A stretch of 49,847 nt of DNA, taken from the NCBI GenBank assembly GCA_017886765.1, contig JAGHJI010000067.1, positions 1-49,847 of the forward strand, in the 5' to 3' direction. A model generated the notes under the pieces. The model did not search any database, was not told where the DNA came from, and saw nothing but the letters and a program-made list of their open reading frames with translations. The translations under genes were made by a program, and so were the position numbers. This stretch comes from Eubacterium sp. Its GTDB lineage: Bacteria; Bacillota; Clostridia; Oscillospirales; Acutalibacteraceae. Of this stretch, positions 3,399 through 38,515 are shown in pieces. The stretch's first letter is position 1. Each line of letters opens with the position of its first letter.

Positions 3399-3438
3399 TG
3401 TTGCAGGAAAACACCTGTCTGTTTCTGAACAGGCAGGT

Positions 3439-3678
3439 CAGACTGTCGATAAAGTGGACTGAAACACACCAAATAAAATACAATAAACCGTTTTGCCTCC
3501 CTTGTCAATGGAGGTGGCAGCACGCAGTGCTGACGGAGAGATTCCAACAAAAAAACAGCGGCAAGGATATTGAATCCTTGCCGCTGTTTGGCGTTTTTCG
3601 TTTTTTGCTCAGGGGCGGTACCGTTGTACAGCACCCGTTCGCAAGAAAACGAAATTCAGTTCCATTTCTCGAAGTCTG
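3439..3678 (+). repeat. 240-bp terminator-associated repeat, copy 1
   Basis: First of three copies (the others at 26937-27179 on the minus strand and 38273-38515). The ends are CAGACTGTCGATAAAGT and CTCGAAGTCTG, which share a short imperfect terminal inverted repeat (CAGACT with AGTCTG, extending into TCGA). Inside are a palindromic module of about 50 bp (3495-3545, CCTCCCTTGTCAATGGAGG) and a hairpin of two ACAGCGGCAAGGAT-type arms (3558-3587). The copy follows the stem of the VanW gene terminator (3411-3438) directly. The last 11 bases of that stem, AACAGGCAGGT, occur again at 3684-3694, where the U-tract follows. It therefore looks inserted between stem and U-tract, with target duplication. 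Open frames read through it are not treated as genes. Confidence 0.85.
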
Positions 3679-11204: not shown

Positions 11205-11883
11205 TTTTATAACCTACTCCCCATACGGTTTTAATAAATTTGGGATTACGTGACGGCTCGTGCAGCTTTTCCCTTATCCTGCGTATATGGACCATAACCG
11301 TATTGTTGCTGTCCAGATATTTTTCTCCCCACACCTTTTCAAAGATTTCCTCGGTGGAAACGACCTTATTGGCATTTTCACACAGCAGCCAGACGATTTT
11401 GAATTCAGTGGGCGTGAGCTGTACGGGCTTTTCGTAAAGCGTACACTGATGCGTATCGTTATTCACTATGAGTCCGGCGTAATCAAAGATGTTTTCATCC
11501 GCCGGTTTGCCGCCGTTATATTGTGTGTATCGCCTTAACTGCGCTTTTACGCGTGATACCATTTCAATCGGATTAAAGGGCTTGGTGATATAATCGTCCG
11601 CGCCGAGAGACAAGCCGGTGATTTTATCCGTATCCTCAACCTTGGCCGTCAGCATAATAACCGGGAAAGTAAAGTTTTTCTCACGTATTTTTCTGAGCAC
11701 GGAAAAGCCGTCCGTGTCAGGCAGCATAACGTCTAACAATGCCAGGTCAATATGCGTGTTTGAGATACATTCCAGGGCGCTTTTGCTGTTATGGAATTTA
11801 AAGACCGTGTATCCCTCGTTTTTCAGGAACACCTCGACCAAATCTCCTATTTCCGCCTCATCATCAAGAACAAGAATATTCAT
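11191..11883 (-). CDS. VanR-like response regulator (OmpR/PhoB type)
   Basis: 230 residues from the ATG at 11883, chosen because GGAGGCGG lies directly upstream; an earlier in-frame start lacks a ribosome-binding site. The receiver domain has LDDEAE, the phospho-acceptor in LLDVMLPDTDG and KPF near residue 100. The C-terminal winged helix includes NNTVMVHIRRIREKL and ends FIKTVWGVGYKIEKN, very close to VanR. It is the first gene of the operon with the kinase and has its own promoter. Confidence 0.95.
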   Translation of the reverse strand: MNILVLDDEAEIGDLVEVFLKNEGYTVFKFHNSKSALECISNTHIDLALLDVMLPDTDGFSVLRKIREKNFTFPVIMLTAKVEDTDKITGLSLGADDYITKPFNPIEMVSRVKAQLRRYTQYNGGKPADENIFDYAGLIVNNDTHQCTLYEKPVQLTPTEFKIVWLLCENANKVVSTEEIFEKVWGEKYLDSNNTVMVHIRRIREKLHEPSRNPKFIKTVWGVGYKIEKN

Positions 11884-23583: not shown

Positions 23584-23955
23584 TTACTGCTGTTTATATT
23601 CGGGGAAAAGTTCAAAAAACTTGTTGTTTGATAACGCAAAAAATTCTTTCGGTGTAGAGGTACCGTTTATTCCGACTTTTTCGGCCGTTGCATACCAGAG
23701 CAGATATTTGTCAAGCGCAATCTGACTTTTGACTTTTATATGTTCGCCGTCCCTTAACAGCAATCCGTCAGCGGCCATTTTTTCCGCGTCCAGAATGATT
23801 TGTGTTTCGCTGCCGTTATAAAAATCAATCAAGTCGCATAAATCATAATACCAGTATTTAAAATTTTTACTGATTTTAAGAGTATATACGGAATTTTCAA
23901 TACAGCAGAACTGATTGTATTTTGTTGAATCCGTCAGCTTACAGTTTATCACCAT
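23584..23955 (-). CDS. Unknown protein, 123 residues
   Basis: I do not recognise a family. The sequence is soluble-looking, with an aromatic-rich middle (ISKNFKYWYYDLCDLIDFYN) and a helical C-terminus (SQIALDKYLLWYATAEKVGI). There is no signal peptide or membrane segment. The start is the ATG at 23953-23955, 15 bases from the end of the DUF559 mini-element; only a weak AGGT precedes it. It is 41 bases upstream of the S66 peptidase gene and probably co-transcribed. If the mini-element was inserted here, this gene was separated from its original upstream region. Confidence 0.65.
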   Translation of the reverse strand: MVINCKLTDSTKYNQFCCIENSVYTLKISKNFKYWYYDLCDLIDFYNGSETQIILDAEKMAADGLLLRDGEHIKVKSQIALDKYLLWYATAEKVGINGTSTPKEFFALSNNKFFELFPEYKQQ

Positions 23956-23970
23956 AAAATGTACCTATCA

Positions 23971-24412
23971 GCCTCCCTTGTCAAAGGGAGGTGGCATTGC
24001 GTTAGCAATGACGGAGGGATTCTTTTACATAATTATCTATGTATTCACAAACTCCGTCAAAATTGTCGTTTACTTCATTATTTGGAATCCTTAATACGGA
24101 TATACCGTATCGTTCAATTCTTTCTGTTCTTATGCTATCTGAGCGTATGCCAGCTGTTTCATAATGCTGTGAGCCATCAATTTCAATGACAAGTTTTGCT
24201 TTTGAACAGTAAAAATCCACTATATAATGATCAATAACCTTTTGTCTTAAAAATCGGATTGGATAATTTTTAAGAAAATCGTACCATAAACGGCGTTCCT
24301 CTTTTGTCATGTTCTTTCTAAGTTCACGGGCGTTTGCTGTTAAATTTGGATTATGTTTATACATATGAATCCCTCCACCGCAAGCGGTCCCCCTCCCTTT
24401 GACAAGGGAGGC
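23971..24412 (-). mobile_element. DUF559 mini-element with inverted terminal modules
   Basis: A 442-bp unit holding one gene, bounded by two related modules in inverted orientation. The left module is 23971-24022; the right is 24367-24412. Both read inward from GCCTCCCTTGTCAAAGGGAG to GGAGGGATTC. Each contains a CCTCCCTT/AAGGGAGG hairpin of 8 bp with a 4-base loop and a second small hairpin that differs between ends (ATTGC/GCAAT left, CCGC/GCGG right). The right module provides the GGAGG ribosome-binding site of the gene, the left one encodes its final residues. It begins 4 bases after the prfA stop codon. No clear target duplication is seen. Related modules lie in the 240-bp repeats at 3495 and 38330. 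Confidence 0.7.
24002..24364 (-). CDS. DUF559 protein (Vsr-like endonuclease fold)
   Basis: 120 residues. The DUF559 family has the PD-(D/E)XK/Vsr-type nuclease fold; few members have a known function. The expected acidic residues are present: D50 in HYIVDFYC, E61 and D63 in LVIEIDGSQHYE, with H67 following. The N-terminus (ARELRKNMTKEERRLWYDFL) and the C-terminus (SVLRIPNNEV) are typical of the family, so it looks intact. The ATG is 2 bases inside the right terminal module and its GGAGG lies in that module. The last seven residues, KESLRHC, are read from the left module. A role in moving or copying the surrounding element is an inference. Confidence 0.85.
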   Translation of the reverse strand: MYKHNPNLTANARELRKNMTKEERRLWYDFLKNYPIRFLRQKVIDHYIVDFYCSKAKLVIEIDGSQHYETAGIRSDSIRTERIERYGISVLRIPNNEVNDNFDGVCEYIDNYVKESLRHC

Positions 24413-24416
24413 TATA

Positions 24417-26936: not shown

Positions 26937-27179
26937 CAGACTTCGAGAAATCGAGGTGAATTTCGTTTTCTTGCGAGCGGGAGCTGTACGACGGTACTGC
27001 CCCCGAGTAAAAAAACGGAAAACGCCAAACAGCGGCAAGGATTCGATATCCTTACCGCTGTTTTTTTGTTAGATCCCTCCGTCAGAACGGGTCGGCGAGG
27101 ACACCGTCCCCTACAAAAGAAAATGCTATGCTGCACACATTTATTTTGGCGTGGTTCACCCGACTTTATCGACAGTCTG
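26937..27179 (-). repeat. 243-bp terminator-associated repeat, copy 2
   Basis: Same outer frame as the other copies, in minus orientation: CAGACTGTCGATAAAGT at 27179 inward, AGTCTG at 26937. The central palindromic module is replaced by a different one (GTAGGGGACGG, then GACGGAGGGATC, complement of about 27071-27112). The ACAGCGGTAAGGAT/ATCCTTGCCGCTGT hairpin is kept. It abuts the stem of the GH29 terminator, and the entire 21-bp stem-loop is present again beyond its far side. Confidence 0.85.
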
Positions 27180-27200
27180 AGAGGCTGTTTTACAGCCTCT
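27180..27200 (-). terminator. GH29 operon terminator stem, proximal copy
   Basis: An AGAGGCTGT/ACAGCCTCT stem of 9 bp, 4 bases after the fucosidase stop codon on the minus strand. Its downstream U-tract is missing because the 243-bp repeat starts immediately after it; the tract is found with the second copy at 26862-26882. On the plus strand TTTTATTATT follows, so it may still stop transcription from that side. Confidence 0.7.
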
Positions 27201-33379: not shown

Positions 33380-34087
33380 ATGAATATGGATGAAAAAAAG
33401 AAAACGGTTCTTGTATGCGATGACGACGAAGCAATACTGGAATCCCTGCGTATCTATCTTGACAACGAGGGATACAATGTGCTGACGGCGTCAAACGGCG
33501 TTGAAGCGCTGGAGCAGATAAACGAGCAGGAGATCCACTGCGTGATACTGGATATTATGATGCCGCAGATGGACGGGCTTAAAACGACGCTGCAGATTCG
33601 TAAAAAATATAACTTTCCGATTATTCTGCTGTCCGCCAAAAGCGAGGATACGGATAAGATAACGGGACTGGGCTTCGGCGCCGATGATTATGTCACCAAG
33701 CCTTTTAATCCCCTGGAGCTTGTGGCTCGTGTAAAGTCCCAGATCAGGCGCTATGTCGTTCTCGGCAGTATGGAGATAAAGGAAAGCCAGCTTGTGACCG
33801 GCGGTATCATCCTGGATACGGATACAAAGAAGGTGACCGTGGACGGCGAGGAAGTCAGGCTCACACCCATTGAGTATAAGATACTGGAATACCTTATGCG
33901 CAATATGGGCAGGGTGCTGTCATCATCTCAGATCTATGAGGCGGTGTGGAACGAGCCGTCCTATACAAGTGAAAAAACCGTAACCGTTCATATCCGCAAT
34001 CTGCGTGAAAAGATTGAGATTAATCCTAAGGATCCGAAATACTTGAAGGTGGTGTATGGCCTTGGATACAAATGTGAAAAAGTTTAA
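33380..34087 (+). CDS. OmpR/PhoB-type response regulator
   Basis: 235 residues from the ATG at 33380 (GGAGAAAGG 7 bases before it). The receiver has VCDDDEA, the phospho-acceptor Asp in VILDIMMPQMDG and Lys in VTKPFNPLE. The C-terminal winged helix includes RLTPIEYKILEYLMRN and SEKTVTVHIRNLREKIEINP, ending VVYGLGYKCEKV. It overlaps the kinase gene by 32 bases. The pair is distinct from the VanRS-like pair at 10-12 kb, although the regulators are related. Confidence 0.96.
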   Translation: MNMDEKKKTVLVCDDDEAILESLRIYLDNEGYNVLTASNGVEALEQINEQEIHCVILDIMMPQMDGLKTTLQIRKKYNFPIILLSAKSEDTDKITGLGFGADDYVTKPFNPLELVARVKSQIRRYVVLGSMEIKESQLVTGGIILDTDTKKVTVDGEEVRLTPIEYKILEYLMRNMGRVLSSSQIYEAVWNEPSYTSEKTVTVHIRNLREKIEINPKDPKYLKVVYGLGYKCEKV

Positions 34088-38242: not shown

Positions 38243-38272
38243 AAAACAGGACAAGCCTTAAGCTGTCCTGTT

Positions 38273-38515
38273 CAGACTGTCGATAAAGTCAGCTGAACCA
38301 CGCCGAAATAAAATACAACAATCCGTTTTTCCTCCCTTGTCAAAGGAAGGTGGCAGCACGTAGTGCTAACGGAGAGGTTCTAACAAAAGAACAGCGGTAA
38401 GGATATCGAATCCTTGCCGCTGTTTGGCATTTTCCGTTTTTTTGCTCGGGGGCAGTACCCTCGTACAGCTCCCGCTCGCAAGAAAACGAAATTCACCTCG
38501 ATTTCTCGAAGTCTG
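38273..38515 (+). repeat. 243-bp terminator-associated repeat, copy 3
   Basis: Bounded by CAGACTGTCGATAAAGT and CTCGAAGTCTG. Contains the CCTCCCTTGTCAAAGGAAGG module (38330-38380) and the ACAGCGGTAAGGAT/ATCCTTGCCGCTGT hairpin. It follows the TVP38 gene's terminator stem (AACAGGACA/TGTCCTGTT, 38246-38272) without a gap, while the sequence after its far end, TTCTTTATATT, is the expected continuation of that terminator. CTGTTC occurs at both junctions (38268-38273, 38513-38518). Confidence 0.85.

Follow-up and report, generated by a model that had tools for sequence, protein, structure and literature searches.

A DUF559 gene set between two folding modules

The window analysed here, the whole 49,847-nucleotide stretch of DNA from Eubacterium sp. 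(contig JAGHJI010000067.1), contains in the intergenic region between prfA and an ORF of 123 residues a compact unit, in which a single DUF559 gene is placed between two inverted copies of a short module (Table 1). Read from outside to inside, each module consists of a pyrimidine arm CCTCCCTT, a 4-nt loop, a purine arm AAGGGAGG, a second hairpin particular to that module and a foot GGAGGGAT that mirrors the purine arm (0 mismatches in both window modules). The edges of the unit form an inverted repeat of 25 nt with 96% complementarity, and an inner inverted pair of 20 nt is complementary at 80%. The GGAGGG in the foot of the right module lies 6 nt ahead of the ATG of the DUF559 gene, while the left module contains the last codons of the gene along with its TAA stop. 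These observations bear out the original prediction that two inverted modules bracket the gene, one supplying its ribosome-binding site and the other its last residues and stop. That the modules are of one kind and about 50 bp in size holds in part: stem, loop and foot are alike, but the sizes are 49 and 43 nt and the second hairpins differ.

Table 1. Features of the DUF559 unit and related repeats in the window
Feature	Position	Strand	Size	Basis
Whole element: module, DUF559 gene, inverted module	23970..24413		about 440-444 bp	inverted repeat
Terminal inverted repeat	23970..23994 / 24389..24413		25 nt	96% complementary
DUF559 gene	24002..24364	-	120 aa	ORF; Pfam PF04480, E=2e-30
Left module, foot inward	23972..24020	+	49 nt	detector score 8, 0 mismatches; genome pattern match
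Right module, foot inward	24369..24411	-	43 nt	detector score 8, 0 mismatches; genome pattern match
GGAGGG in right-module foot, placed as Shine-Dalgarno	24371..24376	-		direct sequence reading
ORF next to the unit	23584..23955		123 aa	ORF
240-bp repeat, three copies	3438..3678; 26937..27180; 38272..38515		240 bp	79-88% identical
Decayed gene-less module in a 240-bp repeat copy	38331..38355	+		24/25 nt
Decayed gene-less module in another 240-bp repeat copy	3495..3544	+		pattern and repeat comparison
Inverted pair of repeats	11528..11679 / 33603..33753		~150 bp	75% identity

With up to 3 mismatches allowed, the stem pattern is found 5 times in the window, as against 0 times in each of 100 dinucleotide shuffles, and these shuffles together with the flank controls described below exclude a chance origin of the module pattern. 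A full-module detector, which seeks the stem and then the mirror foot, passes only the two modules of the unit when moved stepwise over the 49.8-kb window; likewise, the strict module pattern occurs just twice in the whole 1.9-Mb genome, as these same two modules. A known RNA family was rejected as a candidate, as the window gives only a tRNA at Rfam gathering scores.

The 123-residue ORF next to the unit resembles an internally deleted remnant of a protein of about 245 residues: residues 1-60 align with one end, and residues 51-122 with the other, of longer homologues from four congeners (G011, G015, G376 and G013; G and L numbers are our handles for genomes and loci). Elsewhere the window holds an inverted pair of repeats of about 150 bp (Table 1).

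Modules accompany short DUF559 genes

A scan of species genomes yielded at least 553 relatives, of which the best 79 loci, mostly from gut Clostridia and one from a MAG labelled Bacteroidota, were kept. A flank test was then defined on 80 loci, namely L001 and these best 79, the other loci of the genus being left out, with 738 other ORFs on the same contigs as controls and a minimum detector stem of 8 for loci and controls alike. A full module is present in at least one flank at 77/80 DUF559 loci versus 62/738 control ORFs, and in both flanks at 50/80 versus 3/738. An inverted repeat joining the flanks with a score of at least 25 is found at 47 of 78 loci and 37 of the 738 controls (L115 was unscored, and L120, which has a wrong start, stayed in this count and in those on 80 loci). 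A direct, non-mirror foot scores in one flank at 41/80 loci and in both at 10/80, so that G-rich composition accounts for a minor share of the signal from two flanks. In the sample from the genus, too, most of the short DUF559 genes fetched show inverted modules in their flanks, the module sequence varying with the protein subtype. Short DUF559 genes usually lie between inverted module copies, an outcome in favor of the original prediction. In some Clostridial elements (L112, L118 and L119) the modules are oriented feet-out instead of feet-in.

Other DUF559-domain proteins were rejected as part of the system. The 16 divergent or longer ones compared (L025-L028, L036-L043, L046, L048, L050 and L051; minimum stem 7; L044, L045, L047 and L052, which are domains in very long frames, left out) have no C/G-rich module, with one AT-richer, chance-like match above threshold at L046 and one below threshold at L042.

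Patchy distribution and junctions that lack the unit

Of 60 genomes of the genus, 29 have a DUF559-family match; in four of them the only matches are other DUF559-domain proteins, which leaves the short type in a patchy 25/60 (carrier status is our reading of the genome search, and G003 is counted from a fragment at a contig end). The original prediction had envisaged strains with an empty site between prfA and the 123-residue gene. The 123-residue protein was sought in 80 congeners and matched in nine, its own genome included; among the eight others, prfA is present in the fetched stretch of three and absent from the fetched stretches of G013, G019, G022, G026 and G377. In G011 and G376, prfA (its protein 93% identical over the part covered) and the downstream homologue of the 123-residue gene are separated by about 45-75 nt, which contain neither a DUF559 gene nor a module, whereas in G015 the same junction holds about 860 bp of other sequence. 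Two orthologous junctions thus lack the element, and the predicted empty site exists in congeners, although these two junctions have diverged so that the exact ends and any target duplication are unreadable there. At 45 elements no target-site duplication is apparent by eye, and no movement was seen directly.

The empty junctions and the other gene contexts found elsewhere rule out a fixed host synteny. A phage gene was also rejected as an explanation, since scans of 2.9 million viral contigs gave 29 and 27 relatives and 50,697 phage records gave 2.

Dispersed modules without a gene

Exact patterns were used to count modules over the 60 genomes of the genus, with a reversed-pattern control that is zero throughout. 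The median number of modules per genome is 15 in the 25 carriers and 0 in the 35 non-carriers, and after subtraction of the genes' own flanks the medians are 13 and 0 (p=9e-5, kinship ignored). Because the module types of the genes there are our own reading and partly circular, we argue from the totals only. At least one module is held by 12 of the 35 non-carriers (32 in G046 and 17 in G051), and the carriers G005 and G022 have no module by the strict patterns.

A set of 20 regions was chosen for inspection because the pattern count showed a pair in them. In G057, 22 of 28 type-A modules occur in 11 feet-in pairs with spacers of 25-31 nt (~29 nt); the spacer is nearly identical in 6 of the 11 and the flanks are different. 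These spaced pairs are dispersed miniature elements without a gene. In the window itself the module had been said to recur, without a gene, inside the 240-bp repeats. Traces are indeed present there (25-26 nt at 92-96% identity in two copies and 12 nt of the foot in the third), but they are decayed remnants and none of the repeats passes the full-module detector. The proposal that gene-less modules are non-autonomous derivatives of the element draws support from the inverted pairs dispersed in congeners.

The gene and its ends change together

For comparison of the genes with their ends we grouped the module loops into classes, the grouping being our own, over a set of 106 elements from which L022 and L029, both truncated at a contig end, had been left out, as had L025-L028, which are other proteins. 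The loop class is the same at both ends in all 62 elements classed at both; shuffling gives a mean of 21 and a maximum of 32 in 10,000. On the protein tree (104 rows, with L049 and L120 left out as short or wrongly started readings; 7 rows without a class) the module class requires 11 changes versus a shuffled mean of 46, a value as low being reached in 0/200, although these trees are poorly resolved owing to their few columns. A tree from residues 9-100 only gives the same result for module class, which indicates that the module-encoded tail is not the driver. Paralogues of different module class, each with its own ends, occur in single assemblies (L055/L130, L056/L103 and L113/L119, one assembly per pair); the assemblies with two DUF559 genes of different class are RGIG5569, RGIG3041 and RGIG9132. 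Such pairs argue against host ancestry as the reason for the agreement, with the reservation that the assemblies are metagenome-derived and a mixed bin is possible. The DUF559 gene and its ends therefore coevolve, in keeping with what the tight fit in the window had suggested.

The protein and its kinship

In Pfam the protein matches only DUF559, DUF2726 and MTES_1575, with no transposase-family match, and in NCBIfam only the DUF559 model PRK09767; in neither collection does a Y1/HUH (IS200/IS605-like) transposase model match it. A profile was made from an alignment of 45 sequences; it matches PDB 3hrl ('Endonuclease-Like Protein', E=1.9e-17), which we take to be a Neisseria protein, and weakly 3r3p ('Mobile intron protein', E=0.0023), presumably I-Bth0305I. 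The invariant columns of this alignment are D50, E61, D63, H67 and D76. By this kinship the 120-residue protein is a predicted Vsr/PD-(D/E)XK-like nuclease of EDxHD-like type. A single-sequence structure model is of poor quality (mean pLDDT 44.8), and PADLOC gives only weak partial matches, for 2 of 3 proteins.

A possible three-strand architecture

Two points were absent from the original prediction: the three-part mirror motif of the module, and the reach of the association into other phyla, which is taken up further below. As to the first, the mirror foot varies together with the two arms. In 194 distinct C-type modules (a second loop of 7-40 nt being allowed in this set), an outer stem pair C-G goes with a foot G in 88/94 cases and G-C with a foot T in 83/93; in the next pair T-A goes with a foot A in 145/152 and C-G with a foot G in 33/41. 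The A-type modules (30, one of them without a standard pair) have the same covariation, at 15/15 and 14/14. Of the 194 C-type modules, 163 have a complementary second hairpin, versus 16 upon shuffling.

The purine-motif triplex code places T on C-G. It also places G on G-C and A or T on A-T, as given in a study of E. coli repeats (PMC4666352). The three-strand covariation is the one that this code leads one to expect, and it is not predicted by ordinary pairing; its significance is overstated, since the module copies are related and may descend from few subfamilies, and the base covariation could partly reflect descent within two old module subfamilies. With its pyrimidine arm, purine arm, variable hairpin and mirrored purine foot, each module end could form an intrastrand DNA triplex.

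The closest counterparts in form are the BoxC/PIT/triplex repeats, familiar from E. coli since the 1990s. The same study (PMC4666352) equates TM_ECO, PIT and BoxC, counts 3610 occurrences in 262 proteobacterial genomes, and links the motif to genome instability; TM_ECO oligonucleotides gave a stable triplex in vitro by CD and NMR, which in vivo footprinting did not show. Like the class II repeats of this kind, the modules described here have a pyrimidine arm, a purine arm and a mirror purine foot; both are also intergenic and multicopy, sometimes occur as inverted pairs and are found in several phyla. The exact TM_ECO pattern differs in having 9-nt stems and a 3-nt second loop, whereas the window modules have an 8-nt stem and a second loop of 15 and 21 nt that forms the hairpin. 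A further difference is that the authors report no mobility gene around the sites and link no gene to them (PMC4666352), whereas here a DUF559 gene lies between the modules. Our search of open-access papers, with subscription papers and preprints mostly outside its reach, found no literature link of DUF559 to such repeats.

Other phyla, Escherichia coli and viral contigs

Six DUF559 genes from other groups, chosen for spread from 35 matches in a plasmid collection (Deinococcus, Synechocystis, Picosynechococcus, Azospirillum, Photobacterium and Neisseria), all adjoin such repeats by eye. The detector passes five of them, the Picosynechococcus locus L172 being found only with a 5-nt stem, below threshold. 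Within the phylum of the window, loci from other families (L034, L035 and L049) have a different module of this type in one flank or both (minimum stem 7). Two side observations were made by eye: the modules at the Deinococcus plasmid locus L170 are feet-out, with an additional inverted repeat, some 15 nt long, outside them, and the sequence downstream of the DUF559 gene at the Azospirillum locus L173 resembles prfA, as at the window unit.

E. coli K-12 MG1655 carries a DUF559 gene, ycjD, the last codons of which (...RRSPSP) extend into a degenerate repeat, with a full TM_ECO about 170 bp further on; the flanks of ycjD are degenerate and none passes the module detector. Among 5426 complete E. 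coli genomes, 3365 have a match to ycjD and the others have none. In 60 evenly spread records, with the gene's own place subtracted, the median number of BoxC/TM-like places is 17 (11-27) in the 37 with ycjD versus 4 (1-15) in the 23 without it; the ranges overlap, and the comparison is not independent because the absence of ycjD follows E. coli lineages. There is no clean empty ycjD site, as strains without the gene hold efflux genes there (in one case an IS beside sapF), and the copy at fepB-entS, whose edges have diverged, does not amount to a clean insertion.

For relatives on viral contigs we picked 27 of 56 loci, the near-duplicates L210 and L213 both being counted. The motif (minimum stem 7) is in a flank of 17/27 and absent from 10/27, versus 8/156 control windows; these are single 295-nt windows from 24 of the same loci at the same minimum stem, so that the chance rate for two flanks is about double.

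Evolutionary interpretation

A close known counterpart of the unit is the RAYT/REP systems, in which, according to PMC2817692, a gene lies between inverted repeats, gene and repeat coevolve, copy number is tied to the gene and repeats occur as spaced pairs. The parallels are a small nuclease gene with palindromic repeats, inverted to each other, on its two sides (here at 50/80 loci in both flanks, not at all of them), repeats dispersed without the gene, also in regularly spaced alternating pairs as in BIMEs and REPINs, and a coevolution of gene and repeat in which copy number follows the gene (here with kinship ignored). The enzymes, in contrast, differ, the RAYT being a tyrosine transposase related to IS200/IS605, whereas the protein here is matched by DUF559-type nuclease models; unlike REPs, the DUF559-linked modules also carry a mirror foot. 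Judged by the family that its enzyme matches, the DUF559 unit is not a RAYT; most likely it is a selfish system of the RAYT/REP kind that uses an unrelated nuclease. It resembles insertion sequences with MITEs in its inverted ends, its copies with and without the gene and the empty junctions, but it differs from a DDE insertion sequence or MITE in lacking a transposase-family match and a visible target duplication, and its ends are folding modules that also occur singly.

We consider it probable that the unit is a minimal selfish element, comprising a DUF559 nuclease gene and two cognate ends, whose enzyme would recognize the folded end. The flanks, the empty junctions and the joint change of gene and ends support the original prediction of a minimal nuclease-carrying element; movement, nuclease activity, recognition of a folded strand, a nick and a route of copying are inferred. 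In a possible sequence of events, exposure of one strand, on the lagging strand or by extrusion, would allow the module to fold; the DUF559 nuclease would recognize the folded module through its loop and foot and nick at or beside the foot, upon which repair or replication would copy the segment bounded by the two modules to a new place. The enzyme could also carry gene-less modules, paired or single, as has been suggested for RAYTs and REPs.

A variant of the selfish view, not exclusive of it, is double-stranded homing, with EDxHD-like cutting of duplex module sites followed by double-strand-break repair, the fold being of minor importance for recognition. It has in its favor the profile match to the 'Mobile intron protein' noted above, the absence of a target duplication by eye, and the placement of a DUF559 gene in the EDxHD homing endonuclease family by PMC9403480. 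We regard it as unlikely, since the mirror foot, the three-strand covariation and the complementarity of the second hairpin all point to a folded strand, and since the outer flanks differ between copies, so that no long homing site is visible. The likeness to I-Bth0305I and Vsr lies in the profile similarity to 3hrl and, weakly, to 3r3p, whereas the 120-residue window protein leaves little room for the extra DNA-binding region of I-Bth0305I described in PMC3943268. Moreover, unlike the genes of EDxHD homing endonucleases, the window gene is intergenic, resides in no intron, intein or coding target, and is flanked by its own repeats.

The correlation between gene and repeat number would arise likewise if DUF559 were a Vsr-like host nuclease that clears or resolves triplex-prone repeats, such that repeat-rich genomes keep the nuclease, which plays no part in the spread of the repeats. 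Vsr itself is a repair enzyme. In Caulobacter, PMC12907096 connects a DUF559/Vsr-like protein with DNA damage in cells from which a methyltransferase is missing. Such a caretaker role is rather improbable as the explanation of the unit, because it leaves unexplained why the gene lies flush between inverted modules, with its stop and Shine-Dalgarno sequence inside them, and why presence is patchy, orthologous junctions are empty and the loops match at the two ends in 62 of 62 elements. It is very improbable that DUF559 is a mere passenger of ends moved by another transposase in trans, or of terminators or regulatory hairpins that stand near any gene, for although many right-end modules are followed by a terminator-like T run and 62 of the 738 control genes have a module in a flank, the both-flank arrangement is nearly confined to the DUF559 loci (50/80 versus 3/738), the module class follows the DUF559 tree, and the association is seen again, with other module sequences, in phyla that are unrelated.

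Returning to the selfish element with its own nuclease and cognate ends, we lean slightly towards the broader view that triplex-repeat nucleases have their founding family in the short DUF559 proteins, the enzymes of a class of selfish elements that spans phyla and in which a folded three-strand DNA end would be read.

Implications

If this is true, it would account for the BoxC/PIT/TM repeats of Proteobacteria and Cyanobacteria as well as for the abundant palindromes of gut Clostridia, and the RAYT/REP way of life would have been invented a second time, independently. It would also give a role to the unnamed family DUF559. In E. coli, ycjD emerges as the candidate cognate nuclease, which makes the origin of the BoxC/PIT/triplex repeats directly testable in a laboratory strain. 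Finally, the three-strand covariation would suggest that natural selection acts on a DNA triplex.
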